Positions 31,223 through 63,032 of a stretch of 64,000 nt of DNA are shown piece by piece. The first letter of the stretch is position 1, and the number at the start of each line of letters is the position of its first letter. The stretch covers positions 33,273,608 to 33,337,607 of the forward strand of contig NC_088300.1 in assembly GCF_032854445.1 (NCBI RefSeq). The letters are read 5' to 3'. The position numbers and the translations under genes are program-made. Under the pieces are notes generated by a model. The model was given only the letters and a program-made list of their open reading frames with translations. It made no database searches and was not told where the DNA came from. The DNA comes from Liolophura sinensis. Taxonomy: Eukaryota > Mollusca > Polyplacophora > Chitonida > Chitonidae.

Positions 31223-33068
31223 TCACACATGTTGTAGAACCTTAATTGCAAGGACACCAACCACGGCTGCTCCGATCGTCAGCAGGCCATTTCGTATATT
31301 ATTTGAGCCACAGACAATTTCTTCACCAGGGACTTCACAGCGCTGGTATGTTGCAGGAAAGTCATGGGATAGAAGTTTCTCATCCAGCAGGTCACGATCA
31401 CAAGGTCTTATTGTCTCATGCGAGTTATTAGGAACCACAGATGGTTCCACATCCGTACTACTATCTCTATAAAAATCGTCGCCAAAATATTTTGTGCCAA
31501 AAGTAGAAGATGGCAAGGAGCAAGAATTCCCCTGTATTACTTTATTACGTTCTGCGTCAGTATCTGCACAATAAGCCCGTGGTCTTATAACAGATGACCT
31601 TCCGTCAGTGTTGGCAGAAGAGATGCTGGGGGAAGAAAGAGACTGATCACAGGCACCGGTTATCTCATTCGTCTGGCTTGTTTCCATATTGGTAACGACC
31701 GTAGATGCCTCACTGTCGAAGAACACTGAAGCTTGGGAAGTATTTCGTCCGAACTCTTTCATCAGTTGTTTACTAGAGTCTAAAATTCGTGGGCAAAATG
31801 CTTCTTTAGGTGCAGTGTCTATGTTATTCACCACCCGCAGTGTGGATATTTCCTTAACATCAGTCGAATTCGTGCTTTCATACGTAATCGGGCCCTTGTT
31901 CAAGTCAGTTGAAGGTGAACGAATGTATTGTATGTCGACGAAGCTGGAGCTCCCAGCATTGCCTATTTTCGGCAAAGGTATGCCCGGGACACCTTCGAAA
32001 TTTTCGCTGACCCTAGTCTTAGTTCCCAAAGCGCCTTGTGGTCGTATGTACTGAGAATGGAAACTTTTTATCGCCGAGTCGCTGAATTTCTGTTCAATCT
32101 CATCAATAAATTGTCTTTTGTTTTTGAAGAAAGCCGAGTCTACACATGGTTGCGACACCACAGGTGCACCGATGGCCTTATCTGTCTCATGCCTGATTTC
32201 CTCCACATCACCCGATGACTTGCGCATTTCTTTGACCCCAACATCCTGGTATGTCTGTGCTGGATTCTTTTCCGCTCTATGTTGTGTAAGAAGTTTCTGT
32301 ATTCGAATGTTATTTGAATCAAACCCGGTAGAGCTGCGTTTGGAATGTTTTAGCCCAACGTTGGCCTCACGGTATCGAACAGACGACAAAGCATCATCCT
32401 GTGTACTAATGACCGCGACAGACTGACTTTCAAATCTGTCATCTACATGCTCTGATATAGATACTTCTGTATCTGATCCAAAACTCGACACGTTTTTATA
32501 TGCCGACGCTTGTGTTAATAGCGATGACAGTTCCCTTTCACTGTCCGTAAAGCCTAGTCGTTCATTCTCCTTGTCCAAGGTGCTGAATCTTTCCTGTGTG
32601 TTGGTATTTTGCGGTTGTCCACCAGTGTTTGATGAGTGAGTTCTGGTGATTGGTTGAGTAACTTTTCTCGATTTGTCATTGCTGGTGGCTGGATGTCGTC
32701 TCGAAGACACACCAGACGGTCTTCGGCCTTCGGACAACTTCCTTGGATGCCTGGAGTCAACCCTGTCTCTCACACTTTCGGGTGGTCGCTTACATCCGTG
32801 AGTCCGGGCAATTGCGGTGGATTTCACTCCGCCTGATTGAGGACGCGCTCTATATCGGCGCACAAATTTCTTTGCCGCCGTGCCTTCTTCCAGGTCTGTC
32901 AAGATGTCATCCCTCTCCATATCGGAAAGTCTTTGTACCAATATGCCCAGCGTCGCGTCGTCTTTTGTCACCCAATCTCGGAGTAACGCGAGAGAAGGGG
33001 ACTGCTCGTTTTCAAATTGGTTTATTTCGTCCATAGAATAACCTGTTAAAAAGTCATGAATTCAAGAC

Positions 33069-33109
<41 letters not shown>

Positions 33110-35727
33110 TGTGAACGACACATAGGGGACGTCACCACAGCAGGCAACTTAATTATTTTTATGCCCCAAGGAGAAAACCGAGAAGCTTTTTTGTACTTGT
33201 ATATGTCCGATCTGAGGCAAACCCTTCCAAACCTATAGACACATATACATCAACATATGTCTTTTACTATCCGTGTAATTAATTAACTAAATTTTCCTCC
33301 AATTACAAGACATGGATTTCTATCAAACCTTAAACATCTAAAAAGATCTATTTGCCTGAAATGTATTTGTCGCCCAGTAAGGTGATAGCCTTTTACACGA
33401 TCAATTTCACCATTAGTTTAATGGGCTCAAAGTGTAATACTGACTATACTAAAAACAAACAAATATACACGTTATTGGTTTCTGTGGATGATAATACAAT
33501 ATACACCTGGAGAGTTGTTACACAACATATAATTCATATTTTATGTAAATTGATTTTCTATATATTCTCTATAGAATCGCTTAGTTTTAAATTCAGTGCA
33601 TTTAAACTGTCAGGTGAAATGTGCAATCATATTTTGGGGTTGTTTGTAGTGTGTGGGGGACATATACTTACCAGCTTTCTCTGCAAAAATTTTCCAGTTC
33701 TCCAATGTATCCAGATCCAACCTTTTAAATGCCTTATGAAGTTCACCTGTTAATAACCTGACTGGGGTGTCTTTGTTAACATGACGGTGCCGTTTCATAT
33801 TGGCGCCTGCAATACAGAACAGTTACATTATTATGAATAATTTCGTATGTGTGTATGCTTGTGGTTTTACGTTTTACTTAGCAATTTTTGAGTCATACTA
33901 CGACGAAGAGTCGTTGGCAGTGTCTTCGTGCTTGCATATAGGCAACGTGCTTGCCACCGCAGAAGTACCCTGCCGAAGACACCAGACATTTCACCGCACC
34001 CAGGCACACTATATTGAAACCAGGCCAACTAGTCCTGTTTTTCTTTAGGTTGCTGAGCGCCAAGTGAGGCGGCACCATTTATAAAATCTTTACTAAAGTA
34101 ACGGAAAGGATCATACCAAATTTGATGATTGAAATTTTAAACTCAAAGTTTAAAAATCACTTCGTTTCGCAGGTCTCCGGACTTCGTGGAGGACGGTTTT
34201 GATTATTTCTTTAACAGTTTGGTGTAATTGCAGGCAGCAACATTTGACATTTAAATCTAAGGAATAATCGGATACAATGTGTTGTTTTCCCAAACTGAAC
34301 GCAGCGCATAAGGAACGAAGAAAGCGCCCCTTAACACCGAGAAAGATTTTCCTGTTTGTGAAAGTTATCGTGCTTTGGAAGGGCAAGATGTTTTCCTATA
34401 AAATGCAAAATATTCTTGAATTTTAAAGATTACATCAAATACACGACGTCATCCGAAAGAAAGGCAATTTCATTGTTCGCAAATATTACCTCGGTGAGAG
34501 CGCCCTTCAAGGTCCGCTTCCAACATATCGGCGGTACCGGGAAGATTTACTTCAGGGTGTCTTAAAGCGTCACATAATTGTGTAAACCAGTTGTCCCTCC
34601 CCCTCAGGTACTCCATGAGACTCTGGACGGCTAGTCTCTTGCCATTGAGTGTCTGCTGACACCAAATGGTTTCCTGGAAGAAGAACCCATAAACTCATAC
34701 ATAATTACATGCATCACACCATCCAGACAGCTAACTGTGTTGCAAATTAAAACAGTTAACGGAAAAATGCATGCAAATACCCCCTGCTCGCATACCAGAA
34801 CAGTGAAGCGAAAAGACTTTCCTGCGAGAATAAATATCTAACCTACATATTTCACGACAGGAGTGCTGGCATACCAGAACAGTGAAGCGAAAAGACTTTC
34901 CTGGGCGAATAAAAATCCTGGCTCTATAGTATCAGGGACCGATTCCACGAAACCATTTCTGACTTACACCAAAATCTGAAATACGATTTTAAATCTTTTT
35001 TTGGGGCGATTGATTTTAAAATTTTGTCCACCTAATCACTATTATCGTAAGATAAATGTGTCTCAATGTCGAATTCCAGTAGCATAAACTGGCATTGTAA
35101 AGTTTCAAATTTTGACTTAAGTTACAAAAGGTTTTGTGGAATCGGCCTTACGAAAACATTGTCTTTGACTTAAGTCAAAAGTAGTTTTAACTTTAAGGAC
35201 CTGGTTGACCCATACTTTTCTCTCAGTTTATGTACTGTTTTATATATAAGCAAAATGAGCAAAAATCTTAAATAACCGTACTCAAAAATATTTCACTTAT
35301 TTTAATTTATTTATTTATTTACTTATTTTGATTGGTGTTTTACGCCGTACTCAAGATTATTTCACTTATACAACGGCGACCAGCACTATGGTGGGGGGAA
35401 ACCGGACAGAGCCCGTGGGAAACCCACGACCATTCGCAGGTTGCAGGCAGACCTTCCCACGTAGGGCCGGAGAGGAAGCCAGCATGAGCTGGACTTGAGC
35501 TCACGACGACCGCGTTGGTGAGAGGCTCCTGGGTGATTAAGCTGCGCTATTGCGCTAACCAACTGAGGCACGGAGGCCCCTTTTCCGATTTAAGATTTTC
35601 TTATTACCTTTCTAGCAGAGGAAATACATGGTAAATGTGGAAGAATGACCTTGGGGTCAATAACTTCGACAAGTTTCGGTAATCTTCGGGATACCACGTC
35701 CTGTGGTCTCAGTCTGTCGGCAGGCAT
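31223..35727 (-). CDS. MAVS-like adaptor: CARD, death domain and C-terminal membrane anchor
   Basis: Exons (minus): 35798-35608, 34673-34490, 33806-33672, then a last exon from 33041 to 31223, joined in matching phases. Starting at the ATG at 35727 gives ~752 aa; an upstream start is possible (see 35995 and 37231). Residues ~12-100 are a CARD (VIDPKVILPHLPC, then KRLAVQSLMEYLRGRDNWF). Residues ~118-200 are a death domain split by an intron (LENWKIFAEKAG, then LALLRDWVTKDDATLGILVQ and MERDDILTDL). A ~530-residue Ser/Thr-rich, probably disordered middle follows. The last ~20 residues are hydrophobic (LLTIGAAVVGVLAIKVL) and end in QHV, the form of a tail anchor. MAVS is a tail-anchored CARD protein of the mitochondrial outer membrane that relays RLR signals. 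The CARD plus tail and the adjacent RLR argue for that role. The death domain is absent from vertebrate MAVS. I see no clear IRF3-docking pLxIS motif. Organelle targeting is inferred. Confidence 0.82.
33069..33109. repeat. (AT)n microsatellite
   Basis: About 40 bp of uninterrupted AT dinucleotides, in the last intron of the MAVS-like gene just upstream of its terminal exon. Confidence 0.95.
33880..34085 (-). mobile_element. SINE family B fragment
   Basis: CCGAAGACACCAGACAT, AGGCCAACTAGTCCTGT and GCTGAGCGCCAAGTGAGGC match the fuller copy at 47385 in order. It is intronic in the MAVS-like gene. Confidence 0.6.
34790..34903. repeat. 35-bp direct duplication
   Basis: GCATACCAGAACAGTGAAGC and the following 15 bases occur at 34790-34824 and again at 34869-34903, without mismatch, in an intron of the MAVS-like gene. 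Confidence 0.9.
34935..35147. mobile_element. MITE-like element with ~45-bp inverted ends
   Basis: The left end GACCGATTCCACGAAACC, then TGACTTACACCAAAATCTGA, is mirrored at the right by GACTTAAGTTACAAAAGG and TTTTGTGGAATCGGCC. The interior is AT-rich and non-coding. It lies in an intron of the MAVS-like gene. Confidence 0.55.
35308..35580 (-). mobile_element. tRNA-derived SINE, family A
   Basis: A complete reverse copy: TTTATTTATTTATTTACTTA tail, GGTGTTTTACGCCGTACTCA, ACCGGACAGAGCCCGTGGGA, GAGAGGCTCCTGGGTGATTA, and a tRNA-like head ending GCACGGAGGCCCC. It lies just outside the first CARD exon of the MAVS-like gene. Confidence 0.85.
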
Positions 35728-36160
35728 CTTTCTGTCGACAGACACAGTCTTGGTTAATTGCTGAATGCGGATGACATTTAAAATATCGCCACCCACAGCT
35801 GAAAATGTAGAAAATGAAATGCTCATTAAACGATCGATCTTTATATTGCACATACCTTTAATTCTTGTAAATATGTCGACACGAGACTCTCCATTATCAT
35901 TTTATCGATTGCACGAGTGAATTCTGAGAAGATAGCTGACATTGACGAAGTTAGGCCTTATACTTTATATACACTTATCTATACATACTAATACCTGCAG
36001 ATTTTGTTAGGTTGATTTCTGACAATATATAGTTCACACTGATGGCGTTAGGCCCTACCGTACACTGTAGATTTTGCATGATTGATTTCTATATCTGACA
36101 TTTATAACGTTAGGCTTTTACAAATGTTTACGCACGGGTGTACCCATTTGCAGCTTATGA

Positions 36161-36422
36161 TTTATTTATTTATTTATTACGCCGTATTCAAGAATATTTC
36201 ACTTAAACGACGGCGGCCAGCATTATGGTGGGTGGAAACCGGGCAGAGCCCGGGGGGAAACCCACGACCATCCAGAGGTTGCTGGCAGACCTTCCCAGGA
36301 AGCCAGGTTGCAGGAAGCCAGCATGAACATGTTTCTGTCACAGCGACCGCATTGGTGAGAGACTCCTGGGTCATTCATTACGCTATGCTAGCGCGCTAAC
36401 CAACTGAGCCAAGGAGGCCCCC
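36161..36422 (-). mobile_element. tRNA-derived SINE, family A, with target-site duplication
   Basis: A complete reverse copy with GGTGGGTGGAAACCGGGCAG and GAGCCAAGGAGGCCC, flanked by the identical 14-bp direct repeat TTTGCAGCTTATGA at 36147-36160 and 36423-36436. It inserted into a degenerate unit of the microexon array. Confidence 0.9.
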
Positions 36423-38036: not shown

Positions 38037-38047
38037 GAAAATGAAAG
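38037..38047 (+). promoter_or_regulatory. ISRE-like site (IRF-binding consensus)
   Basis: GAAAATGAAAG fits GAAANNGAAA exactly, 243 bp upstream of the RLR ATG. A similar site lies 235 bp upstream of the second CARD gene's ATG. Confidence 0.45.
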
Positions 38048-38116
38048 TAAAGGAAGGGTTGTTCGTTGTTTCCATGACTGTTATTCAGACTGGGGTTTCT
38101 GTCCAACAGCAAATAC

Positions 38117-38289: not shown

Positions 38290-39167
38290 ATGGCGTCTGC
38301 TTTTGTAAAAGAGGATACCGACGAGGAGCAGAGAATCAGAGCTAACGTGAGAAAATATCGCCATGCAATAGAGAAGAGGATAGATCCCGAGCAGATGTTG
38401 TCATCTCCGGCTGCTGTGACACTGAAGGCGTTACTAGGGGGTAAGTAAGACATCAGGTAAAGCAACTGAATGGTGTACAACTGAAAAATACAGAATCTTG
38501 TGTACCACCGGTACACATTAACTGTAACAAATGTACACATCAGGAATCTGAGACAAGGCAACAATAGCTAATGGTCAACCTAAGGTAATGTAGGTAGACT
38601 ACACCATTACACCTCACCGGTACGAGATCTTAAATTATAATACGTTCCATTCCGTTTTTTTTTTTTTGGGGGGGGGGGGGGGGGGATTAACGGGCCTGAA
38701 ACCGAATAACGTTGTTAAATGCTTTAGCATCACCTAGGATCCTTACTTGCTGTTCGATCTAGCAACATGCAATGGTTTTGTACAACTTTAAAATGCCATT
38801 GAAAGAATTCACCTAGCCTCCATTAAGCTTAATCTGGAGTTAATAATACTATTAATCAGAACTATCGGTTAACAGAGTTTTTAACTTGTAACGCTCTGTA
38901 ATGATCAAAATTTGTAACATACTGCGTGAATTGTGTCGTTGAGATATTGTGTGGTGTTTGGAAGTTGCGACAGCGTCGGGTCATTGTATAACTGTTAGCT
39001 TAATATGACGTGATGAATATGTGTGTCGTTTATAATGCGGGTATAAACCGCCCTCAAGACCGCATAGTCAAATCAAGGGAAACAACTCTTCCAAACACAT
39101 GAATAAGGGGACAATACTTTGGTTTATTAGCGCTGGAGATATAATCTAAAGCCATTTGGTGTGTGGT

Positions 39168-39203
<36 letters not shown>

Positions 39204-42200
39204 AGTTTTCCTTGATTCCTTGATTTTAGTCGGTCGTCGGTTTCTGCTCTAGAACTGCTTTAAATATCCGATTTTGATCAAATTTAGTTTATTTTGCCTT
39301 TTACCATCAATATTTTGTACTATCTTTCCTTGTTCAACTTACGCTATTAAGTGTGAGTAATAAATTTGATGAATTTGCTTGTGTTAATATATTTTCACCT
39401 TTTCATAGAGCAAAACGCCCAGGAAATTCGGTCAGTGCAGGACAAACGTGGATTATTGTCGGCCGCGAAAATGATGTTTGATACAATGGAGCGATGTGAT
39501 AGGACAGGAATCTGGATCACATTCTGTGAACTTATACGAAATGACAGTATGTACAGTTTATATACTACCGGTTTTGTAAATATATTCAGCATTGTGTGGT
39601 TCTAATATACCTATATGCTTTCTAGGAGGGAAGCAGGCTCCAAGCATGATGTGGCTACAGATATGTTGCGGGTTTGTATAGTATGAAAGTACAGAAATAT
39701 ATGCCCTATTGTTTTTGTTGTGTTGTGGGGGGTGGGGGGGGGGGGCTGCTATTTTCCTTTTTATTTCTAGAGCAGTTATTAAACCGTTCAAACAAAACGT
39801 CTCTTTTATGCGTGCAGGATATCTTCATATTTTTATGTTCATATGAATAATAAAAGTGTTATACTTGACCTCGAATTATTTTCAGATTACGAGAGAATAA
39901 TCGACATTTTAGACGGGAATTCCTCATCCACAGATGACGAGCACATGAGCCGGATTGATCAAATCGGTCCAGATGTTATAGGCAAGATTTCCCCAGTTAT
40001 AGTCCTGGATCATCTGGGAAAATGGGAATGCTTGACCAAAGAAGATCATGAAAATATAACAGTTATAACAAAAAATCAAAGTCAAATTGCTGGATCTAGA
40101 CTGCTGATGAAGAAACTAAGTTTGTCAAAGAAAAGAAACTGGTACAAACGTTTTCTACGGGCCTTGACTGATAGCAATCAGAAGACGGTGGCAGAGCAAC
40201 TTGACACCAAAAGTAAGAACAAAATAACAAAAACACGTCCCTCTAATATATCAGAAAAATTACTAAGAAAAAATCTTTATTGAAGGATATATGAAAATTG
40301 ATTTGCAATAAACTGTTTCACGTCTGTAAATTTCATGATGCATGGTAGTTACGCATCAAATCTAGAAACTGTTTTCGTTTCTCTAACCTTTCAGTGCCAC
40401 AATTACCATATTTAAAATCTTTGGTATAAGCCGACCCAGTGTTGACCCCAGGTCTCACGACATGGCGACGGATGCTCTGAACATTAGACCACCGAAGTTG
40501 TCTTGGTTGTGTATGGAGTAGCAATTTACCTATATATGCTCCTAAAAAACATGCATTTTCGGTCACATTGACCTTTGTAGATTCGTTCTCGTTATTAAAT
40601 AATGACCTCGGGGTCTCTGTGGCTCAGTCGGTTAGTGCGCTAGCATATCGTAATGACCCAGGAACCTCTCACCAATGCGGTTGCTGTGAGTTCAAGTCCA
40701 GCTCATGCTGGCTTCCTCTCTGGGTGTAAGTGGGAAGGTTTGCCAGCGACCTGCGGATGGTCGTAGGTTTCCCCTGGGCTTTGCCCGGTTTCCTCCCACC
40801 ATAATGCTGGCCGTCGTCGTATAAGTGAAATATTCTTGAGTACGGCGTAAAACATCAATCAAATAAATAAATAAATAAATAATGACCCCTGAAATCTTCA
40901 TTCTAAATGTGTCAGTCCCGCTGTAAGATATACAAATTGAAGAACACACTATCCAACTTTCATTATAGATGCCTTGTTAATGTCTTTTTAGGCTTCAACT
41001 TTGTGCCTGAAGCAGCCACTAGTAGCATTGATAGCAATGCTGGAGAGGCTGACTCAACTGAAGTGAAGTACTTTGAAGAAGATGGGGAACGGGAATTCAC
41101 TTGTGAGATTTATATATATATATATCTATATATATTAAATCAATGTGCCCTCAAAGGTGTTTTGTTGTGTTTCAAAAGGCGAATTCAAGGCTAAAATCGG
41201 ATCTTTCCTAAGCCTTGCTCACGGCTACATGGGAGAATTTTTTTGCAAAAAACCGATGAGTGCAAATGCAATTGATTTTTGGCTCAAATTGTACAATTGC
41301 TCAAATAATTAGCTTTATCAAAATACCAGCCTTCTCTTTGCAGGTGTTGCCTTTCTTTCGGTAATAAAGTTTCAAAATTTATAAAGGTTTTACTCTATAT
41401 GCTGCTGTATGTCTTTAATTATAATCTTGGTTTCTGGGGTTTTGGATTCCTATTTACCCCACATACATGAGTCTGTAGATGTCCCAACTCTATAACATAT
41501 GACTGGGGTGGAAACAATGTTTCATATTACTTATAGGTCGTTTTAAGGACATTGGTCATGGAAGGTCAAATTTGGCTGCACCCAGTACATTCTCCAAAGA
41601 TGTCATGCATGGGAGTTTAATGACAAGCTTCGACCTCAAGGCAGGAATTAAAGCACCTGTGGATCAAGGAGAAACCGTGTGTGATGGGCCAAGCAACAGA
41701 TTTAAAGGTTTGCAAACAAAAACTAACATGCAGAAATATGTCGAATGCACATGGGTTGTACGCTTGATACAAGAAGGCTAAACTTTTTAGCCTTGCTGAA
41801 TGCAAATCTAATTACCAGCTTAAACAACAGTGGTAATAATAAAACAGTTCTGGCCTGCCATTGTTGTAGCGTCCAAATGATAGGAACACTTGACAGCCGT
41901 CCTTTTCCAGTCCACTGACCGTTCCATTCTGCAGTGTGCAGTTTTGTTGAGAACTTGAAAGAGAAAAATCATTCTCTCAAAATATACGCAGTTCCAGACA
42001 AAAGGATTTTTCGTCACAACACTCATTAGTGAAACTGGGATGAAAGTCCACAATCACACCATTAACCAAATGCTGAGTCTTTTCCTTTCCAAATTTTTAA
42101 AAATACGTTGGAAAACAAACATGTGACTCAAAACAGTGGATATATTTGGCGAGCATGGTCTAATGCTGTCTCTTTTATTACCTCCAGGGCATGTGCTTGT

Positions 42201-45200
42201 ATTCCACCAGAAATATAGAAATTATCTTTTAGGTCTGTCCATCTGTAATCATCTCAAGGCATCTTTTTCAAAAAGGGACAGAGAATTTGAAATTCAGAAT
42301 TTTGCATATACATTCACCACCAACGAGCAACTTTTCCTTTCAAATTAATTCTAGCTTAAGCTATGCTGTCTATTGTCCATTTCCTTGGAGCAATATGGAA
42401 AGTCGCTCCACCATGATGCAGTAATGAGAAGACATTTGCATGCAGAGAAACAATGCAAACGTTATTGGGTTTATGTACAGCTACAATACAACAAGCTGGT
42501 GAAAAATTGAAGTGATATGACTCCTACCTTTTGCTCAAAGGGATGGCAAAAATTTAGGTCGAAAAAGCAGATATAGCCATTTTAAGGTACATGTATGTTC
42601 CTGGGGGAATTCCCATCATGATCAAAATACGATTACGTGATCCAAAATTCATTGTGCGTGTTTGACATCAAGTTAGAACGTGGTAAAGTAAAAAAATGTA
42701 ATATTTGCTAAGGTCCATGTGGACCTGAGTGTTAAACTCTTGTTCCACTTGGTGCAGATATACATTATATCATGGACGGCTTACAATATGAGACCAAGAA
42801 TTCGATTCCTGCCGTTCGTTACTGATTTGGTCGGTCCGGTTCTATGTGCCTCATGTTAGGCTCCTTAAACTTTTTGATTGCAGCTATCATGTAATTTTAG
42901 AACTGTGTATACAGTTAGGAGGTCCACTTGACTAATAGGCACACTGATGTTTTTAGCTAACATCATGGATGTGCCAGTGATATCTTTCCTAAGGCAATGA
43001 TGTCCATAATCTCTGATTAATGTATCGCCTGCTACATGTATTTGGAGACAGGACGTCCGACGATATCAGTGGAATTGGCATTTTACAAAGTCGGGTGAAA
43101 TGTCCGTCGTACTCGGCATCGTCTGCCACCTTATATCTGAAGGTACTTCCGGTATAATCCTCCGTCTAGATTGTCCGTGTTTGGACGCTTGAATTTGTAT
43201 AGGTCTGTAGTTTGTAGCATATACATATTTTTACGTTTCATTTATTCGTTACAGATTTGGCACAGTTAGAGGAGGATGGTTTTAAACAGCGAAAACCAAT
43301 TAAGCTAAGGGGATACCAAGAAGAGCTGGCAGAGGCTGGACTGGAAGGGAAAAACTGCATGATAGTTGCTCCTACCGGAAGTGGGAAGACACATGTGGCC
43401 CTGAAAATCATAGAGGTTCTGTACAGTTTTAAATAGAAATCCTACTCCATAGTATCGAACTACGTCAATGAAATGATTTTAGAATCATGTCCATATTTGT
43501 AAATTAAAACAACTAACAGGGTGGTCATTAGAACTGTTTATATCTAGAAGGTTACTTTTACTCCAAGTCTGGCGACACTGCCTTCCGCCAGTGAACACAA
43601 ATCTGAGCAGGTTGCCGATGAGCGGTCAGAGAGAGAGAGCTGTAATATTGAGAGTCTCTTCACCTCCCTTTTATATCCTCGGAATTAGTAATTCAATTAT
43701 CTGTACCATTTTTTCACTCCCAAAAATCAACTGACAGACGTTTTTAATGGCTGGTGACATTTATTTGGCACTTGTTCTGAGTGTGACGTTTGTTTCTGAA
43801 GCACAATAACAACAACGACTCAGTTGTTGAGTCAGGCCCGTTGTATTTCTGTACAGCCAATTGTGTATAGGTAATATCTCAGTAGGTAATGTGAATAGGT
43901 CACAGTAGTAGGCCTACCCAACCATCTAGGAGAATTTTACTACGGTCCAGTATTTTCAAACATTTCTGATACCTTGCTGACTTGATACCCTGTAGGAGGA
44001 TTTGTCCATTTAAGTATTAACCTAATCCACAGGGGAAAACTGTACCCCTGTTGTCATGCAAAGGGAAAAATTCCTGAAGCGATGTACTGTAAAAGAAAAA
44101 TATGTAAGACAAGAAAAAACATTTTTTTGCATACTCTCTACCGCAGGGATACTGCGACCGAAGTAGTTTGTTGGTGGTTTGACGATCTCGATACGGTGCA
44201 GCTTTCCCAGTTTAATATAACCGTTCTTGCATAACGTTTAGCAGTTTTGGTATTACAGGAACATTTGTCAGCCTCTCATGAAAATCGTAAGGTCGCTATT
44301 CTGGTCAAAGACGTGGTGTTGGCTGAACAGCACACTGAGAGTTGCAAGGCTCACCTGCCGCGTGAGTTGAGAACTAAACTGATAACGGGCGGGAACGACG
44401 AGCAGATCAGTCTGAGCAGATTACTACAAGATTTCGACGTGTTCGTCATGACCGTTCAGATTCTCGCCGATGCTTTGGCGTTTGATGAATTTTACATCTT
44501 GTCCGAGTTTACGATGATAGTGTTTGATGAATGCCACCACACGCTGAGGAAACACCCCTACAATGTAGTCATGTCATCGTACTTGGATGAAAAATTAAGA
44601 GAGGGTGGACCAAGACGACCTCTCCCGCAGGTACATGAATAAGTATATAAGGTTTAAGCCTTTTTCCTCGCACATGGCAGTTCCACGTGGGGCGCTCGAG
44701 CATACATCAGATGTATGGGGAATTACTTATTGGATATCCTACGCGATTTCAGTCAGAAAAATGTACATAAGTTCTTCCGCTTTGAATTTTGAATTAGTTG
44801 TATTCTTTAAAACCTTTTCAACCTTTTTTTTATGGCCATAGGCATAGGTGTCTATATCTTATTGAGACCACACGAAACATTTACCATCAGTGAACCGCTA
44901 TGTTATTCCCCACCCCCCCAACTTTCGATATGTACGCGAGCGTTTCCATGCGGAACACCACACTTGAAGTGAAGAACCCGCTGAAGACCTATAGACGCGT
45001 CTGACTTTGGTACACATTATGGGCGTTTCCTAAATGGTCTTAATGGTCGAGTCATTATTATGTTGTAAGATCTAAATATATGCACCGAAACACCCAAGAA
45101 GAGGAGACACGTTTTCATCTTTATTGCGATGCGTTGAAAAGGGTTCATACTTTGTCTTCTGTTGAAGATAATGTCAAAATGATGAGAAAGGGTGCATTGG

Positions 45201-48200
45201 ATAGGATTTTTCTGATAGTTTTCATATTTTGGTTACATACATATTTGAATACATTCAACCCGTAAGAAACTATTTCTTGAAATATATTTTTATTCCCTGT
45301 TTTCAATGCCATGCCAATTTTTGCCCGCCAGGTCAAACTTGTTTAAAGAATTAGAAGGACATTTTTTTCCCTTGGACATTTCCTTGTTTACCCTCGCTCA
45401 GTCCCTATACGTTTATTGTGTTATTTGCATCCGGTAATACATTTATGCGCTTTCTAACAATATGGAAACAATATGTGTATATGGCCCAGAAGACTAGTGG
45501 TAGCGATTCCATTGTTTTCATGCACATAATATTGGTGGCCTATCGCGTCATTCTTTACTCGATCACCCACAGATGAACATAGATCCATTCTCCTTTAAAA
45601 CAGCTTCGTGGCCAAGTTACCAGAAAGCCCAATGAAATGGTAAGAAATGCCTTGGAGACGGGAAATGTCCATACACAATATATTCTTGGACCGTTTAAGT
45701 ATTGTGATCCAATTGAAAGCTGACTGACTCCACGTGAGTGCCGGACAACGAAATGAATTATCAAAAATGTCAGCATTGAAATGTTGAACTGAAACGTACG
45801 TGTTTCAGATGGCTGGTGAGGCAAATATGGCGAATTTGAAACAAGATAGGCTTGTATGTTCGCCGACAGGCTGTGGAAAGTCACTGTGCTTTTGTGTTGT
45901 CGATCGACTAGGAGTCAAAACAACAACAACAGGCGATCAACCAGTTCGTTCAAAATGATAGAAGACTATTATATTGTTGTTATAATATTCCCACAAGTCA
46001 ACAAGTGGATAAACGTACTGCCAGTGGGTTTCGGGCGGTAAGTGTGATTTTAGTGAGGGACATAATTGCCGCAGGCTGGGTAAACATTTTTTGTATGACA
46101 GCTGATGTGTAGCAGCGTTTCATTGGTTGACGCAACTTTTAAAACATTAATTTCACGGGGAATTCCCCAAGTTAACCTATACCGGAGAATGGATCTTTAT
46201 TTATCAGTGGGTAATGGAATAAAGACCTAATAGAGTAGGTAACTTACAGTTGATAAGGAATGCATTGTTTTTCATACTTTGCTACAGGCCAATATTTCGT
46301 AAATAATCACATGGTGGCGTGTGAGAAGTAGTTAATACAAGTAGTTACTTTGGTAAATGACAAGTGTTTCTTACTTCTCTCTCTTGAACACATGTCAACT
46401 TGTTGGGCTGCGGTGAGTTCCTCACCTCTGCAGTTTATGTATTTATAGATAATCGGACTAACAGCTTCCACTGGAGTAGGAAAGGCGAAAGACATTCTTC
46501 AGGCTAAAGAACACATCAAAAAACTTTGTGCCAATCTGGATGTAGAGAAAATATGTACGGTGAAAAGGGGGCTAAGAGAATTATCGAAAGTTGTTAATAT
46601 CCCAGATGTGGGTAAGTAATTACGTTTTTATTATTTTTTATTGATATTATTATTGACGTGATGCTTGTAGAGATATTCTTACAGTAAAGGGCCAGAAAAA
46701 ATCGTGCGAAGTCATCGTCTTCCTAATAGTAAGAAAACAGCCCACAAAACATTGCATTGATATATTTAAATGAAGTAAATTCAGTTAAAAAAGTTTTTAA
46801 AGGAAGGGAGGGCTGTTATGGTGATGAGTTTTTTGTTTTTTCCTTTAAAGCCATTGGCATAAATTATGAGTTCATATTTCTGTGCAAATTACAGCCCAGA
46901 TATTATTTTTAATGTCGACATCAAGTTGGTGTTCCATGAACATCAAAGCTTTAGAAATCTAAGCTGATCGTTTTATACTTGACACATGCCACACTCATTA
47001 TAACTTCCTCTCCTCAACATCGTTCATTTATTTGTTTGCTTATTGTTACCGTTTTCCTTGTATTTACATCCAGAGATTCATTTGGTTGGTGGACGCCTAG
47101 AAGATCATTTTGCCGCGTTTGTCCAAAAATGGATGATTGACATTGAGTCGAAGATTAAGAATCATTGTCGTTACTGGACTAAGATCGAGGACCCTCCACC
47201 AGGGAGGAGAGACTGTCTTGAATATAAACAGTGGATTAGTAGAATTATTGAGACAGTAGTACGAAGGCCTGATTCACAGCTCTATTGTATGTCATGCATA
47301 CGGTTTGCAGAGGTAATTGATCTTGCCAAAAGGCCTCCCTTTTTATGTATGCTATGTATGCCAGGGGTTTTATGTCGTACATTTTTCAGTCTTACGACGA
47401 CGAGGAATCATTAGGTGTGTGTATATACTGTGTCTTCTTTGAAAGGGCGAGTCCATTCCGCCAATGTTATGCCGTCACTGAAGTATCCTACCGAAGACAC
47501 TTAACATGACATTATACACATTACACTGACACCGGGCCAACCAGTCTTGTTTCCATACTCTAACCTCTCTGCGCTGAGCACAATGCCAGGCAGCAGCAAG
47601 TACTATTTTTAAAGTCTTTGGTATGACCTGACTCGAGTTTGATGCCAGGTCTCCCGAATTCGAAGCGGACTTTTAAACCATTAGGCTACCGAATCGGTAT
47701 CTACCTTTTTATTCAGTAGAGTATTGACATATAAAATACACCATTGTGTTCTGTAATGTTAAGGTAATGTTTATATAGTTCGAAAGAGTGTAACGTATTT
47801 TGAGACAGACGGGAATGTGTGTCTGTTGTGTTTCTTTTTATTTTGCACTTTATAGATATGTTGAAAGTTCTATGTTTATCGGTTTCGTTTTTATCTCCCT
47901 CTGTATTTAATATGGGGAGATATAATGATCGGCATGGCTGCCTGTCCACCTGTCAGCCTTTTAGTCAATACATCTAGGTGTGTCGGAAATCCTTCCCAGC
48001 GAAGGCATTTTCTCCTACAGTATTTATCTGATTTACCATCTTGTTGGCTCTTGTTTTTCATTTAAACTAACCTGAATCTAACTTTCTTAAATATGAAGCT
48101 ATGCTTGAGTCTGTTCAGTACATCACATTTTAGTAAAGCTTTTTGTTTTTGGTGTATACAGATTTGCAACGATGCCCTTATCATTAATCAAAATGTCCGC

Positions 48201-51200
48201 ACACGGGATGCGTTGAACTACATGTCCAACCAGATACACGAAATGGATGTTTCCAGATTCACTGATATCGAAAAAGAACTGTTTGCGATTTTTCAAGGTA
48301 CGTTTATGGATGATATTTAATATATAGATGAAAAGAGCGGCGTTTGTTGTTTAGGCCGGCGTAATTTGCTATTTGATTTATTTATTTCATGTTGGTTTTA
48401 CGGCATATTCGTGAATATTTCAACTTTATGATTGAGATAATGTTTATGGGTATAGCATAGTTAAGGTCAAAGCGTTGCAACTGGCCAGTTTCCAGACAGA
48501 ACTGGATTTGAACCTGATATTTCAGTGGTGAAGTGTCCTCGGGCCAATGTCATTAAAACCTGTGTCTAAAATATTCCATATCCATACATGTCTGAGTATG
48601 AATAGTTTTTGTAAAACCGGCTAGGGAGCCTCCATGGCTGAAGGGGTTAGTACGCCAGCGCGGCGCAATAGCAAATGCGGTGGCTGCGACTTCAAGTCCA
48701 GTTTATGCTGGCTTCCCTCTTCGGCCGTACGTGAGAAGGTTTGTCAGCAGTCTGTGGACGGCCGTGGTTTTGTCCCACCTTAATGCTGTTTGCTGCCGTA
48801 TACGGTGTAAAATCCATCTTAAATAAATAAATAAATAAAACTACTAATGATCGATAATTAACTGTTGCGTTTATTTTTGTTGAGGTCTCTCTTTTATATA
48901 ATCCACAGAGAACCTTGACTATCTGAATGAAGTTTGCGGAAGACCAGCCAGTGCAAATCCGAAGTTAGAAAAAATGAAAAAGTTGATTCTCTGGGTTTTT
49001 AATGAAGATCCTGACTCTCGTGTCATAATCTTTGCAAAGTTTCGAAAACTTGCTCAAGCCTTAGTGGGTTGGATGACGGAAACGGACAGCCTAAGTAGTT
49101 TGAACGCTCAGAAATTGGTTGGCCAAGGTGCTGAAGAAGATGGAGGTAAATTGATTTGCACCTTTGATTGCACCTTTGATTGCACCTTTGATTAAGGTGA
49201 TTTCTTTCTTACACTATATGTTGGGAGGTAATTTGACTGAAGTCAGATTAAGTATAATTGTTCTTTACACTATCTAACATGGCCACAACTGTAAAGTGCT
49301 TCCAGAACCTTTAAACCAATTAGAATTATCGTTTAAGTGTAAAAAATAATGCTTGAAAGAGTCGACCTCACTTGCAAACATTTGCAAGCATTAAATCCAT
49401 TGGATGGACGAAAGTATATGTGACTCTTCAGATCTTTTAGAACAAATCAGAATAGACAGTGGCTATTGGGGTTGTCTTTAGTGAAAAAATGGAGAATTGA
49501 AATGCCCCACTTGGAAAACTTTTTCTAAATTCCTACTGTCTAAAGAAAGTTAGTGTGTGGGAGAAAATAAATGCACTGTGTCTTAGGGTCCTAGCGGAAG
49601 CACTTCTCGATTGGGTTGGGTACTGTTACAGCACTCGCTGAGTGGATTCACGCCTCTCACCCCCATACACTTTCCTTCCCGGAAGCTTCCTCATCCAAGA
49701 TAAACAAGATTGGCCTCTTTTAGAAGCGTAAATCTCCAAGTTATTAATGTCATAATCGTACTTGTTTTGTGAATTTTTAATTCTGGTAATGAATTGAACT
49801 TATTTCAGGGCATTTTAATTCTAAAAACTTATAAAGTTTTTGGGGCGTCTTCAGTATATGTACATATATTCTCAATTTTAGGAATTTGTAGAAACTACAT
49901 ACACTGTTTTCAAGCTATAATTTGCAAAAAAAAGAGACCTGCACCGATTTATTGATTAGATTACTGTGGTTGTCAAATGGGTTTTCATTAAAAGGAATGA
50001 GCCAGGCAAAGCAAGGAGATGTACGGAAGGGTTTCAGAGAAGGATCCCATAAGGTGATAGTGGCTACATCTGTAGCAGAGGAAGGGTTGGACATTCAGAA
50101 GTGCAATATGGTGATTCTGTATGACTACGACACGAATGAGATCTCCAAGGTTCAAACCAGGGGTACAGTTCTATTGCTTTTCTGGAATAATTATGTCGGT
50201 TTTGTGCCTTATTGATTTAAGGCATGTCAGTGTAATCTGCCACATTCCCTGGTGTTTGTAAATTATTAGAGCATATTCACAAAATCATATCTTCATTAAT
50301 GACGTCTTATAAATTGCTATTTACATCGCTGCCTAATTATGCCACTGAAGCATTTTCGTAAAAGATTAGAGAAAAACTATGAGCTAAATTATTAGAAGGC
50401 CAGATTTCACAGTTTACTTATAACCATCCGCCATCTATCACACTGTTGCTCTAGTTTCACTTTCCATGCTATAATATGTTGCTCTCTAAAGCTGTTTCAA
50501 ATAACGGATAAAATCTGGAGTGTTATCATAATCGTCTACTGCTAACATTAAAGCTTGGGTTTCCAACAATGCAGTCTAAGGAAACTATCCCATCGAATAT
50601 TTTATTTTAACATGAATTTATGACGTTGAGAAAATCTTTGACCTGTGACTTAAGCAAATTAAAATCACATTAAAGAACTGGCGACAGCTGTATTTGATGC
50701 TGTTACACCAGTGGAATGGCCATTAGACCAAACATCCACCGTGGGCCCAATTGGTTCTTGCTGCCAAAGTAAAGAATATTTCAGTTACTTGCACATGTTG
50801 GCGCAGATACCAGTTTATGGATACAAAAAATCAATTTAGTGGAGCACATGATGAAACTTCCAATAGCCAAAATCTTCATCAGATTACTGTTGTCAGTTCG
50901 TTGGTGTTGGACTTTTATGCGTTTACTGGATTAATGTTTAAAGCCGTATTGAAGAATTTCGGGTTGGTTAATTATTCAAATGGTTAATAGGAGCTCAAAG
51001 ACTCAATGAACAAAGCAAAACATGACTTCCATTTTTCACGACAACATTATTTGTCATTACATTATATAAATAATTAGATGAAAGAGTAAGATTACACATA
51101 AGCCATTTTGAGTAAGTTCATTTATATAGGGATTCATGGTTGTCAGGTCGAGCTCGGGCTGAAGACAGCAGATACGTGTTATTGGTGTCTGAGGGTAAAG

Positions 51201-51805
51201 GAGTTGCTGAAAAAGACGAGCTGAATACTATGCGAGAAGTACTTATGGAGAATGCTGTATGGGATCTACAAGAAGAAATTGAAGAAAACCCACGAGGCTT
51301 TGTTGATGTCACAAGGGGCATTCAAATCAATTGTAAAAAAGAGCGAGATCTTAAACGCTTGATGGAACAGAATCGACAATTTATAAAAGGGACTTTCCAG
51401 CTAAGATGTAAAAAATGCAACACTTTGGCCTGTTATAACTACGACATACGCCAGTTTGAATCAACGCATCGAGCAGTTATTTCAGAAGATTTCTGTGACC
51501 GTGCAGACATATCGCTTCACCCAAAACCCACGAAGTTCACAATTGCTAAAAAGGGAAAAGTTTGGTGTGCAAAGTGTGGTTATGATTGGGGAATAGTTGC
51601 TTGCTATCGGTCGAAAAATTTATTTGTGATAAAGATTGTTGCCTTTGTTGTTGTGGACTACGAAGGTAGAAGGAGTACGTTCAAGAAATGGACAGCTGTC
51701 CGTTTTGAAATAGACAATTTCCAGCAAGGAGATAGAGACTCTTGCGATAGAGTTAGTGAGCGGATTGCCACTCGGCTGGCAGACTGTGAATTGAAAGGCG
51801 AATGA
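38290..51805 (+). CDS. RIG-I-like receptor (RIG-I/MDA5 type RNA helicase sensor), complete
   Basis: Thirteen exons: 38290-38440, 39409-39546, 39886-40212, 40992-41102, 41537-41707, 43255-43415, 44259-44630, 46449-46611, 47074-47312, 48162-48297, 48909-49145, 49995-50162, 51147-51805. Total 3033 nt, 1010 aa, close to MDA5 in length. An in-frame TGA 18 nt before the ATG supports the start. Residues ~17-105 and ~118-205 are two CARDs. A linker follows to ~299. Helicase motifs: I APTGSGKT (338-345), II DECH (443-446), III LTAS (481-484), a family-specific helical insert (~490-700), V ATSVAEEGLDI (759-769), VI QTRGRARA (789-796). The C-terminal regulatory domain has zinc cysteine pairs C879/C882 and C932/C935. 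RLRs bind viral double-stranded RNA in the cytoplasm and expose CARDs to MAVS. All key residues seen are intact. I cannot decide between RIG-I and MDA5 orthology. The donors after exons 5 and 6 (GTTTGC, GTTCTG) are weak. Confidence 0.95.
38655..38687. repeat. Poly(T)-poly(G) tract
   Basis: Thirteen T residues followed directly by twenty G residues, in intron 1 of the RLR gene. The length may be unreliable in the assembly. Confidence 0.9.
39171..39199. repeat. Poly(T) tract
   Basis: About 29 consecutive T residues in intron 1 of the RLR gene, ~210 bp before exon 2. No SINE body is attached to it. Confidence 0.9.
40378..40500 (-). mobile_element. SINE family B, tRNA-like head
   Basis: CCCCAGGTCTCACGACATGG and GGATGCTCTGAACATTAGAC, reversed, resemble a tRNA-like head. 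They match the right end of the 47385 copy. Intron 3 of the RLR gene. Confidence 0.55.
40608..40875 (+). mobile_element. tRNA-derived SINE, family A, with target-site duplication
   Basis: Best family A copy: head GTGGCTCAGTCGGTTAGTGC (A box), GTTGCTGTGAGTTCAAGTCC (B box), body ending CTTGAGTACGGCGTAAAACA and an AAATAAATAAAT tail. It is flanked by the 12-bp repeat TAAATAATGACC at 40596-40607 and 40876-40887. Intron 3 of the RLR gene. Confidence 0.92.
45809..45958 (+). pseudogene. RecQ-like helicase fragment in an RLR intron
   Basis: An ATG opens 49 codons containing DRLVCSPTGCGKSLCFCVVD, then TGA. SPTGCGKS is a Walker A motif in the context typical of RecQ-family helicases (LPTG-x-GKS-x-CF). 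Nothing else of a helicase follows in any frame, so this is a stray fragment, probably left by a duplication or mobile element. It lies in intron 7 of the RLR gene. The donor of exon 7 and acceptor of exon 8 join LPQ to IIGLTAS without it. Confidence 0.5.
47385..47700 (-). mobile_element. tRNA-derived SINE, family B (fullest copy)
   Basis: Reverse orientation. The body has TACCGAAGACACTTAACATG, ACACTGACACCGGGCCAACC and GCGCTGAGCACAATGCCAGG. The tRNA-like head at the right reads CCCGAATTCGAAGCGGAC and AACCATTAGGCTACCGAATC. Related pieces lie at 33880, 36782 and 40378. Intron 9 of the RLR gene. Confidence 0.75.
48626..48840 (+). mobile_element. tRNA-derived SINE, family A, diverged
   Basis: GGGAGCCTCCATGGCTGAAG, GCGACTTCAAGTCCAGTTTA, TGCTGGCTTCCCTCTTCGGC and an AAATAAATAAATAAA tail, with an internal deletion. 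Intron 10 of the RLR gene. Confidence 0.75.
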
Positions 51806-54649: not shown

Positions 54650-54775
54650 AAATACTGATGTTTAACATATAGCTTGGAATCGCAGCGTAACAGTAGAGGA
54701 TACTGTTTTATAGCACAAATTGGGGCTTCAGCGTAACAGCCGATAGAAATTTTTTCCGAGATATATATATCTACA

Positions 54776-56178: not shown

Positions 56179-56190
56179 GAAAGTGAAAGC
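56179..56190 (+). promoter_or_regulatory. ISRE-like site (proximal)
   Basis: GAAAGTGAAAGC fits the IRF consensus GAAANNGAAA and lies 235 bp upstream of the ATG, with a kappa-B-like site starting 2 bp later. Confidence 0.45.
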
Positions 56191-56191
56191 A

Positions 56192-59400: not shown

Positions 59401-62400
59401 ACTTTTTAAATGCACGTGACCGGACACCGTAATAGCTATAAAGCTGAAAATTGGTCAGTAGATAGATCAACCCCAGATCTTTATTTTTTGACGTAAGGCC
59501 ACAGAGTTACGACTGATAATTTTGCCATTAAAATGCGTTTAAAAACTTGTTGTTTTTATTGACAGGCAGCTCGTAGAATTGCAATATCTCCAAAACTGCT
59601 AAAGGTAGAAAAGAACAAACTGGGCATTTTTAATAACCAGCATATGAAGCAGCTTTTGACGTGTTGTGCTGTTTGGCTAGTCACGTGATTTGGAATTTTA
59701 TTGATAAGCTTAATCCATCTTTTCCCGTTAATTGGCTACTGATCTTAGGATGAAATTTCACTTTCAAGCTTGTGGAAAATATTGTGGAAAAACTTTTTGT
59801 TTGGTATGCAAGTTGTGCTGTAACTGGCCGATGAAATTAGCTTTAAAGTAGGTGAAGTGTAAAAACTGCTCAAAAGGATTAAATTAATACACTGTCTAGT
59901 ACTGCTTGCATCTGTAAGATCTTTGTTCTCTTTTTCCATTACCATCAACTTATAGGCACCAGATTACCAATCATATCAGCCTGGGGTTCAAATCCAGTCT
60001 ACTCGTTACCATTCTTACTTTTTTGGCCCATAATATTTAGCACTCTCATGTTCAAAGCCTTCACCCATTGCTGAAATAACTCACAAATCAAATACAGTTG
60101 CTACTTAACGTAATCCAGAATGACAAATAATATGGACCTTACCGTGATAAGGAAAGCAGGGCCATGTTGATGTTGTAATCTTACTGTGACTGAACGAGGC
60201 GGAGTGGTGAACACACGTCATATTCTACCAAATTCATTTCGGATTTAAGTATGGACACTATGGTTCATTTGTGGGAGATCGTCACGCTGGGTATTGCTGT
60301 TTTATTTTCGTTTAAAATACGAGATCTGGTTTCGCCAACGTACATGCAATTCACTTGTTCGGAGAGGTAATTATGTAATATTACTTTTTTAATATTATAC
60401 AGAAGAGCATATGACTGACAAATTTGAACGGTCTGTGGTGGAGAAAGTGGAAAGTTTTAAAAAGTGAACTTTAAAAAGCTGTGAGTAGAGACCGCTTCGG
60501 AGCCGTATAACCGCATGCACTTCTAGCTGATATTGATATCAGTAAATGTTGGAAAGGAAATAAGATACAACGGTGTTGAGGTATGTGCCAGCTGGATTAT
60601 CAGGTGGGGAAATGAAGGGTCAGAAGCTTTGTGTACTGATTGAGTTTATTGTGGTGAAAAGGTACATCTGCAAGCATGATTATTGATGCTTACGGGACAT
60701 TGTCCTGGCTTCAACTCCTGTATGGTGGTCGCCTTCCGCATACACGTATGCATTACGTCAGACACACCTCACAGCACAAAACGACACGTATATTGTTTAT
60801 CAGAGGGTACACTTATTGTGGAGCAATATAGGAGTTTATTGCGCTTAGTGACCATTGTCAATGACTTCGTAAAAGAAGATCGGAGATAATCTCCAAGCTG
60901 ATGTTGTTCTCGTGAGTCTCCTTTTAGTACGTTATAGGTCTCGTTGTACATGTACTAAAGAAAATGAGGTAGACAAGAAGCACTGCAGTATCACAGGAAA
61001 AACGACGTGTTTTGGCTTGGATTTGAACCGCTTTGAGTTCCTTATAGCTAAATATGCAGTTTGTGATTTTTTCTGGATATCGATAGATTTTTCTATAAAT
61101 CTAATGACATTGGTGCTAAATACTTTGTTCATAGATACCAGTGTTCAACGTATAAAACGTCGCCAAAATAATGAAGGGGATATGTCGGCCGCGCGTCTAA
61201 TGTTTGAGACAATGGAGAAGTGTGAAGAATGTGGAGTGTGGACAGCTTTTGATGATCTTGTACAAAATGCCGGTAGGTAACATTACTTTATCAGAGACGA
61301 ATGCAGGTTTCGCTATGCTGTAGATACAGAATATTATGTTTAATTATATTAAATTTTGCTGCATATTTCAGATGATTAAAGCGTTGGCCCACTAGAAACT
61401 ATCAGACCCTTGACCAGTGAGGTTATGTACTCTGTACCCACAACTTGTTGGTTTGCCTCCGCTCTTTTCTCAGGAAGTTTGTTATGTTGGATACCGAATG
61501 TCGGTGGTGTACTCGGGCCACTGCAGTTTCTTCCGCCCATAAAACGTTACTGCCATCATATAGGTGAATAATTATTGAATATGTCGTTAAACAACAAGCA
61601 AATAATTGAATCAAGCATTTTTTTCGGATTTGCACAGACTGTTGCATACATTGGCTTTCAGTTTGACCAGCGTGATTTCAAATGTTTTTGTAATATTGTT
61701 TTTTATAGGATACACGAGGATCTCCTTAATATTGCGCGAAGAGCCGATGGAAAACGAGGAAAATAATAAACATCTCCTCAAAGTCATGGGACCTATCGTC
61801 AAACATAAGATCGACCCGGTGGTATTGTTGCCTCAGTTGTTACGGGACACTTTGTCTCCCGAGGATGGTCAGAATGTTCGCGCGGAGGCGAGGAATAAGG
61901 GACCCATTTCTGCAACTGTGCTGTTGTTTGACTTGCTGCTGAAGTCCAAGACACGAAACTGGTTTGACGATTTCATGTCTGCTTTGATTGAAAATCAACA
62001 GCACAATGTTGCTGATGAGATTGACCCTGATTATTACCAAGAATGTGAGTACTTATGCACGTATTTATGTATTATGAATTTATATATATATAAATGGCAC
62101 AGAAGAAAGTTCTGAATGAATATATAAGTGGAAATAGTTGTGGTGACAGTTTTGTTGGGAGATTGGAATGGCACTGATGTTGTCACATCGTTTATGCTCA
62201 CTTAAACATGTTTCGAGTACCTAGCTCCCACTCTAAAATGTTGTGGCTGCTTTCCCTTCATTATGTCAAGCTAAAAAAGACCATGTTCCTAATCTGTATA
62301 ATAATAATCATGTTATTTTGGATATTTTTCAGATATTTATTGCTTGTTGGAAGTTTGAAGATTAGGCTTAAGGTATTTCAAGAAGCGATAAAAGAAGGCA

Positions 62401-63032
62401 CACTGCCCAAGGTCTGATGTTTTAAATTCTCAACAAACACGTTTTGATGAAGGTAATTCTTGACTGTTTGATGTAGGGAAGAAGTTGAGGTCTGAAGGCA
62501 GTAGTTGCACATCAACGGGAGATGAAAGTTTGGAATCTATGTCATCGCAGACCAGTGTTAAAAGAGTTTACGAAAACGACGAAGAACAAGAAATGGAAAT
62601 CAGTTGTAAGTACAACAATATAGCAGCTGTATACTTCATTTGCTTTGGAAAAAGGCGACAACTGATGCGCTTTGTGAAACAAAATTGTCCTGTTTATTAA
62701 GGATTATTATGGACGGTCAGTCATGCAAAAATATCTTTTACATTTATATAGATGACTACCAAGAGAATAACCTTAACAGAGACGACTTGCAGTCAGCAAA
62801 ACCCTTGTCGAAGGATGTAACAGGTCACACCAAGACCTCCAGTGAGTTGCTCCTTAACGTGGGTCTTGAGACACGAGACAAGCAAAAGTGTTCGGTATCT
62901 GGCGAGTGGACACCCGATGCTAATTCTGACAACACAACTCCCAAACAAAGGGTCGACGATTCCAACACGATGGATTTAACGTCAGATGGTACTGTATTGA
63001 CACTGATCACTAATCAGGCTACAACATCTTGA
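56425..63032 (+). CDS. Tandem-CARD protein, RLR paralogue; helicase absent or beyond the window
   Basis: Exons: 56425-56569, 61135-61272, 61709-62044, 62477-62605, 62752-63032 (TGA). Total 1029 nt, 342 aa. An in-frame TGA two codons before the ATG supports the start. CARD1 covers ~12-95 (YRPLIEGIINPTQMLSSAEA, then MSAARLMFETMEKC). CARD2 covers ~115-205 (IDPVVLLPQLLRDTLSPEDG, then KTRNWFDDFMSALIENQ). The rest is a polar, acidic linker ending in NQATTS. Exon 2 is 138 nt as in the RLR gene, and the first four junctions have the same phase, so the two genes are duplicates. Exon 5 either reads through to the stop or is spliced at GATG/GTACTG (62988/62989, a poor donor) in the phase that precedes the helicase in the RLR. 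Only ~1 kb of sequence remains, less than the 1.5 kb intron at that place in the RLR. Both a stand-alone CARD protein and a full receptor remain possible. It may act on the MAVS-like adaptor. Confidence 0.8.
56570..61134 (+). other. Long first intron of the second CARD gene
   Basis: 4.6 kb between CARD exons 1 and 2, against 1.0 kb in the RLR. I see no other gene and no clear mobile element in it. A short G-rich run lies near 58557-58576. Open frames of 60-80 codons are unsupported. Confidence 0.6.

Follow-up and report, generated by a model that had tools for sequence, protein, structure and literature searches.

The DNA considered here, which we call the window, is a stretch of 64,000 nucleotides from the chiton Liolophura sinensis (contig NC_088300.1, here C6:33273608-33337607). 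It contains the beginning of a gene cluster that spans about 66 kb in window coordinates (31223 to ~97.5 kb) and comprises one adaptor gene on the minus strand and three genes for RIG-I-like receptors (RLRs). The adaptor is divergent (head-to-head) to the first receptor gene, RLR1, on the plus strand, while RLR2 and RLR3 follow in tandem downstream. Very probably, the locus is a chiton antiviral RNA-sensing cluster, in which a single MAVS-type adaptor gene faces that of a RIG-I-type receptor and is accompanied by two more twin-CARD RLRs. A preliminary description of the window had already proposed linked, divergent RLR and MAVS-like genes together with a second RLR-type gene, all within 32 kb; linkage and orientation are upheld by splice-checked gene models and Pfam domains, whereas the size roughly doubles.

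Adaptor and receptor genes

Receptor genes were sought by tblastn with RLR1 against the window plus 20 kb to its left and 60 kb to its right, and the resulting gene models were splice-checked; whole-genome searches covered 609,464,459 bases in 632 contigs. Domain anatomy, gene order, splice signals and, in the search made, copy number are direct observations. The coding features of the window are as follows.

35608..35727, minus strand: adaptor coding exon 1, start codon plus N-terminal portion of the CARD; GT donor, phase 0
34490..34673, minus strand: adaptor coding exon 2, remainder of the CARD; flanked by AG and GT, entered in phase 0 and left in phase 1
33672..33806, minus strand: adaptor coding exon 3, N-terminal portion of the Death domain; AG/GT borders, phase 1/1
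31223..33042, minus strand: adaptor coding exon 4, remainder of the Death domain followed by a long linker rich in Ser, a transmembrane segment at the C-terminus (residues 731-752) and the stop codon
35728..38289, no strand: 2,562 bp separating the start codons of adaptor and RLR1, with a dispersed-repeat copy at 36160-36425
38290..51805, plus strand: RLR1, 953 residues, 12 coding exons; 11/11 introns GT-AG, Pfam domains, best PDB match RIG-I
38290-38440, 39409-39546, 39886-40212, 40992-41102, 43255-43415, 44259-44630, plus strand: RLR1 exons 1-6, splice-checked
46449-46611, 47074-47312, 48162-48297, 48909-49145, 49995-50162, 51147-51805, plus strand: RLR1 exons 7-12, splice-checked
56425-56569, 61135-61272, 61709-62044, 62477-62605, 62752-62988, plus strand: in-window exons of RLR2, twin CARDs and linker

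The adaptor gene encodes 752 residues in four coding exons, from 35727 down to 31223, with the domain order CARD, Death, transmembrane segment. All three introns have GT-AG borders and matching phases (0, 1 and 1). Scored separately, the two halves of the CARD reach 12.9 and 27.9 bits with the Pfam profile CARD_2, and together 49.9 bits (3.3e-13); the Death domain (residues 137-199) rises from 37.9 bits (2e-09) with exon 4 alone to 52.3 bits (6.5e-14) when joined. As the joined exons outscore the separate parts in both cases, each domain is completed only across an intron. Hydropathy windows of 19 residues exceed 1.6 only where they start at residues 731-734, which places the transmembrane segment at the very C-terminus. 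The tail-anchored, CARD-bearing adaptor recognized at 31223-35727 in the preliminary description thus holds, with its end at 31223 and its start codon at 35727. Its supposed continuation to ~37326 does not: the open frame found there is not CARD-like, and the CARD is complete from 35727 without it, although a 5' untranslated exon toward 37326 may exist. A distance of under 1 kb between sensor and adaptor had been based on those unsupported exons, whereas the start codons are 2,562 bp apart.

The receptor genes have the full architecture of their family. RLR1 and RLR2 each carry two CARD_2 stretches together with the Pfam domains DEAD, Helicase_C, RIG-I_C and RIG-I_C-RD (hereafter RD), the last matching at 1.8e-23 and 5.1e-24, respectively; helicase motifs I, II, III, Va and VI and the four zinc-binding RD cysteines (C..C...C..C) occur in all three genes. 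The complete RIG-I/MDA5-type receptor earlier placed at 38290-51805 is confirmed by its introns (11/11 GT-AG) and by its CARD, helicase and RD domains, and its PDB matches are led by RIG-I (7tnx; 441.6 bits over residues 17-926), ahead of MDA5 (333.1) and LGP2 (311.0). By these matches RLR1 is a predicted complete twin-CARD receptor of the RIG-I type. The downstream gene, initially described as a duplicate CARD gene starting at ~60.9 kb, does have RLR-type twin CARDs, but it is a full receptor gene: RLR2 starts at 56425, ends at 73541 and encodes 1035 residues in 13 coding exons, eight of them beyond the window (12/12 introns GT-AG; RD match at C6:33346741).

RLR3 comprises 13 exons from 81339, again with 12/12 GT-AG introns; its end was set arbitrarily at 97520, and its C-terminus differs in frame from that of RLR2 after the RD core. 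With 93% identity between RLR2 and RLR3 and 51% between RLR1 and RLR2, the RLR duplication suspected at the outset is substantiated by a tandem pair, RLR3 being the third receptor gene of the cluster. Across 18.8 kb of collinear blocks the RLR2 and RLR3 segments share 92.4% identity (96.1% over 11.8 kb in the main block), and their coding exons of equal length are 93.5-100% identical. The idea that RLR3 is an allelic artefact is disfavoured, since the divergence of the segments exceeds the heterozygosity of 1.24% reported for the chiton assembly (PMC11068029), to which the name Liolophura sinensis was given subsequently (PMC12441733). A broken RLR1-like CARD2 fragment is present at 77475-77669.

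A dispersed repeat of ~270 bp, with copies roughly 68-85% identical (35307-35580, 36160-36425, 40610-40882 and others), is found in adaptor intron 1, in the stretch between adaptor and RLR1, and in RLR introns.

Affinity of the adaptor

The adaptor CARD was compared pairwise with 18 other CARDs, with 500 shuffles each; in this comparison and in the trees, MAVS is represented by one fragment, the 59 residues printed by the PDB search (8wkw), which we take to be human. That fragment gave the highest of the 18 scores (80, z 13.2; 19/59 residues identical, gap-free). RLR1 CARD2 came next (59, z 8.9), then MDA5 CARD2 and RIG-I CARD1 (6bzh) at 53 each, RIG-I CARD1 (4p4h) and RIG-I CARD2 (6bzh) at 50 each, RLR3 CARD2 at 46 and RLR2 CARD2 at 42, the CARD1s of the neighbouring genes scoring 23-32. 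A resemblance to the CARD2 of the downstream gene, pointed out in the preliminary description, is therefore real, as the scores of the RLR1, RLR2 and RLR3 CARD2s were each reached by 0/500 shuffles; it is not specific, since MAVS (80) and RLR1 CARD2 (59) both score above RLR2 CARD2 (42). Searched against the PDB (E up to 10), the adaptor CARD found 14 matches: nine MAVS (best E 0.00045), one MDA5 (0.95) and four NLRP chains, the latter through short repeat-like stretches. A maximum-likelihood (ML) tree under LG+G4 joins the adaptor to MAVS (SH-aLRT/UFBoot 87.8/78; 85.2/74 on trimmed columns), and the RLR CARD1s of the cluster group with RIG-I CARD1 (94.8/89; 79.6/78 on trimmed columns). Profile and PDB matches thus support a putative MAVS/RLR kind of CARD. 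In the whole-genome search with the adaptor (E up to 1; 8 candidates scored), its own four exons were accompanied by three weak Death-domain matches (E 0.007, 0.09 and 0.42), and no second copy was found.

Several observations weigh against a MAVS-type adaptor. The approximately unbiased (AU) test rejected none of four rival groupings of its CARD (p 0.15-0.52); on full and trimmed columns, p was 0.45 and 0.52 for a grouping with the RLR2/RLR3 CARD2s, 0.32 and 0.22 with all three CARD2s, 0.18 and 0.15 with all neighbouring CARDs, and 0.33 and 0.31 with apoptotic CARDs. A protein database search with residues 1-215 gave 1,362 candidates, none at E ≤ 0.01, in a database whose mollusc coverage is uncertain. 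As to vertebrate-type MAVS motifs, there is no TRAF6 motif, one TRAF2-type motif against 1.15 expected, and no pLxIS; of eight checked human MAVS contact positions, only two are kept. Finally, the join between exons 2 and 3 is a predicted one, drawn from splice signals, phase and the architecture of the oyster protein.

This join bears on the possibility that the minus-strand exons belong to two genes, one for a CARD protein and one for a Death-transmembrane protein. Exons 2 and 3 are separated by an intron of 683 bp that is predicted from genomic sequence, which leaves room for such a split; yet both of its borders are canonical and in phase 1, the CARD and the Death domain each span an intron of their own, and CARD and Death are joined in the same order in oyster CgMAVS. 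We regard two genes as very unlikely.

Could the adaptor instead be an apoptosis-type CARD-Death protein of the CRADD/RAIDD kind, acting outside RNA sensing? It does combine a CARD with a Death domain, and the best PDB matches of the latter are p75NTR and MyD88; the AU test, moreover, tolerates apoptotic CARDs as partners (p 0.31-0.33). Against this, the adaptor has no match to the apoptosis-type CARD profile PF00619 at E up to 1, whereas two control CARDs from the same genome, one from a CARD-Death gene on C7 and one on C1, match it at 2e-14 and 7.2e-13. The control separates the two kinds imperfectly, because their profiles overlap. At 34.7 bits the C7 CARD is above the CARD_2 cut-off as well, and its leading PDB match is MDA5; RLR1 CARD2, for its part, passes PF00619 (24.5 bits). 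The adaptor's own PDB matches are mainly MAVS, and it ends in a transmembrane segment. An apoptosis-type grouping, which the preliminary description had named as evidence that would overturn it, is thus disfavoured by profile and tolerated by the AU test, and we consider a CRADD/RAIDD-type protein very unlikely. The C7 gene itself (L025, C7:41.54 Mb) is distinct from the adaptor and perhaps of CRADD/RAIDD type. A separate family of five CARD_2 exons lies on the small contigs C25 and C33 (L019-L022 and L024), the one tested matching CARD_2 at 7e-15.

Predicted function, control and origin

With a MAVS-type adaptor beside three receptors, the most likely working is the ordinary RLR-MAVS pathway with its genes clustered. 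Binding, location and signalling are here modelled on the oyster pathway. The RD and helicase of an RLR would bind viral double-stranded RNA, and its exposed CARDs would seed adaptor assembly through CARD-CARD contacts. Anchored by its C-terminal segment in a membrane, probably the outer mitochondrial one, the adaptor would recruit downstream factors, partly through its Death domain, leading to the activation of NF-kB and IRF factors.

Predicted sites of the interferon-stimulated response element (ISRE) type lie upstream of all four start codons. Those in the window are:

35810..35819, plus strand: ISRE/IRF-type core GAAAATGAAA, -92 from the adaptor start codon, predicted site
38037..38046, plus strand: ISRE/IRF-type core GAAAATGAAA, -253 from the RLR1 start codon, predicted site
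56179..56188, plus strand: ISRE/IRF-type core GAAAGTGAAA, -246 from the RLR2 start codon, predicted site

RLR2 has a second core at 55730 (-695), and RLR3 has one at -219. The core GAAANNGAAA, presumably that of IRF sites, occurs five times in 2.8 kb upstream of the start codons, whereas 0.36 would be expected from the 18 other occurrences in the remainder of 144 kb (Poisson 3.6e-5, or 1.7e-4 if RLR3, being a duplicate, is left out). Its density is higher in 16 other loci (10 in 51.8 kb, which gives 0.54 expected), and for the intergenic stretch alone a local-density test gives P 0.064. The enrichment is a lead only, because six motif patterns were tried, of which GAAANNGAAA is one, and the span of 700 bp was fixed after the fact. 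The adaptor-RLR1 intergenic stretch contains no strict NF-kB site. Three places in the genome have IRF matches, and IRFs of oyster activate ISRE reporters (PMC5557890). The upstream sites are suggestive, if post hoc, and make co-regulation of the four genes plausible. As a compact locus with one adaptor, three receptors and ISRE-type sites, the cluster is suited to the study of an invertebrate RLR-MAVS-IRF feedback.

As to its origin, the adaptor more likely descends from an ancient MAVS line that remained beside RLR genes, or ended up there, than from a recently copied CARD of a neighbouring gene. A local birth would have required the CARD exon set of a neighbouring RLR to be duplicated and joined to a Death-transmembrane gene inside the cluster. 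Tandem duplication did occur here, as RLR2/RLR3 and the broken CARD2 fragment attest, the adaptor CARD does resemble the neighbouring CARD2s at the scores given above, and none of the three local groupings was rejected (AU p 0.15-0.52). However, PDB MAVS outscores every neighbour and the ML trees agree; RLR1 CARD2 is a single exon, whereas the adaptor CARD has an intron, and the intron of RLR1 CARD1 is 3-4 alignment columns away from that of the adaptor CARD and in another phase. The same CARD-Death-transmembrane protein is, in addition, present in oyster. We therefore think a local birth unlikely. Descent from the downstream CARD2, as first suggested, fares likewise: an adaptor CARD copied from RLR2 CARD2 is disfavoured by pairwise scores and ML trees, yet p values of 0.45 and 0.52 do not reject it. 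CARD similarity, in short, favours an old MAVS over a local copy, and the tree tests reject neither.

If the adaptor is old, its linkage may still be recent. In the amphioxus Branchiostoma floridae, three RLRs and IPS1 lie within 100 kb, a region with further candidate genes for a TLR and an NLR kind of protein (Korithoski et al. 2015, PMC4565553). An old MAVS gene and the RLR genes may have met by rearrangement in the chiton lineage, independently of amphioxus, a scenario with a nearly even chance of being right. Chiton chromosomes are reported as much rearranged (PMC12005716), and RD matches are not confined to the cluster: of seven in the genome, three are the cluster genes on C6, three lie on C10 and one on C473. 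The possible TLR and NLR genes of the amphioxus cluster likewise speak for independence, as no TIR match was found within ~1.55 Mb of the chiton cluster among the at least 103 genome matches listed. On the other side, the arrangement is common to two distant lineages, and we estimate the chance of one gene falling within 10 kb of any of seven RD loci in 609 Mb at ~2e-4. The RD exons outside the cluster are diverged and RLR-type (L004 and L007 on C10, L005/L006 on C473 and C10); L005 and L006 hardly differ and might be a single gene that was assembled twice.

Alternatively, the linkage could be ancestral to bilaterians: the pair would predate the protostome/deuterostome split, would have been kept in chiton and amphioxus under shared IRF-type control, and would have been split in vertebrates. 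We put this forward tentatively, as a possibility rather than an expectation. Linkage in both animals would fit one old cluster, though two lineages are few. From amphioxus it had been argued that a gene cluster of deuterostomes gave rise to MAVS and to twin CARDs, and the study in question assigns both IPS1 and twin CARDs a deuterostome origin (PMC4565553); an ancestral linkage, if true, would contradict that published origin of IPS1 and of the twin-CARD layout. A linked MAVS-type gene in a protostome, with twin-CARD RLRs whose CARD1s group with RIG-I CARD1, moves the question of origin to the bilaterian ancestor, where it is testable by gene order.

To the left of the cluster, on the plus strand, lie an anillin-type segment, a PH segment and an HR1 segment below cut-off (27.7 versus 33.1 bits), which we read as a putative rhotekin-type gene; to the right is a galactocerebrosidase-like segment on the minus strand. 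A tandem array of a 95-bp repeat occupies 5388-6910 of the window (16 copies, 96% matches). The open frame 54162-54704 on the minus strand has the appearance of a recombinase-type mobile element, with no Pfam match at E up to 0.1. Pfam found nothing on 60680-60886, and tRNA and Rfam scans of the window gave 0 matches. Elsewhere in the assembly, C99 holds seven cox1 matches ~15.5 kb apart, apparently head-to-tail mitochondrial copies from assembly. The cox1 match contains 8 TGA codons, as expected under an animal mitochondrial code, and the order of mitochondrial genes (tRNAs from ARAGORN, protein genes identified by eye) is that of chitons.

Comparison with known systems

The linkage had been presented at first as a notable arrangement, which is overstated in view of the amphioxus cluster (PMC4565553) and of a CARD-Death-transmembrane MAVS in oyster (PMC5557890). 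Like amphioxus, the chiton has RLR genes and a MAVS-type gene within about 100 kb (31223 to ~97.5 kb), with twin-CARD RLR genes near the gene of a CARD-transmembrane adaptor and signs of partial CARD-exon duplication (PMC4565553). Unlike it, the cluster belongs to a mollusc, measures ~66 kb, has an adaptor with a Death domain that is divergent to the nearest RLR, and has no TIR match within about 1.5 Mb among those listed.

Vertebrate-type MAVS has a proline-rich region with TRAF motifs and pLxIS, which the chiton adaptor lacks (its linker is 5.2% Pro). Adaptors of the CRADD/RAIDD type differ from it in the PF00619 match that it lacks at E up to 1. Its closest counterpart in architecture is oyster CgMAVS, with an N-terminal CARD, a Death domain and a C-terminal transmembrane segment (Huang et al. 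2017, PMC5557890), a likeness of domain order. CgMAVS binds TRAF6 and the CARDs of CgRIG-I-1; in human cells it does not bind the receptor in full length and, alone, activates neither NF-kB nor ISRE reporters. When it is knocked down, mortality upon challenge with herpesvirus rises (PMC5557890). The available part of that paper gives no genomic place or locus numbers for CgMAVS.

In bivalves, RLR genes are arrayed in tandem (Yao et al. 2022, PMC8998645), a layout that the chiton resembles in its local tandem RLR duplication; unlike here, no adjoining adaptor gene is mentioned for bivalves in the accessible part of that study. In the open-licence literature, including the available text of the review PMC6723221, we found no report of RLR-MAVS linkage in a protostome, and the terms immun-, antiviral, RIG-I, MAVS and interferon are absent from the chiton genome paper. 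Aplysia is reported to be without MAVS (PMC9334734); for such molluscs, in which none has been found, linkage offers a positional route to diverged MAVS genes. As far as we have searched, what the chiton adds is RLR-MAVS linkage in a protostome, built from parts already known.

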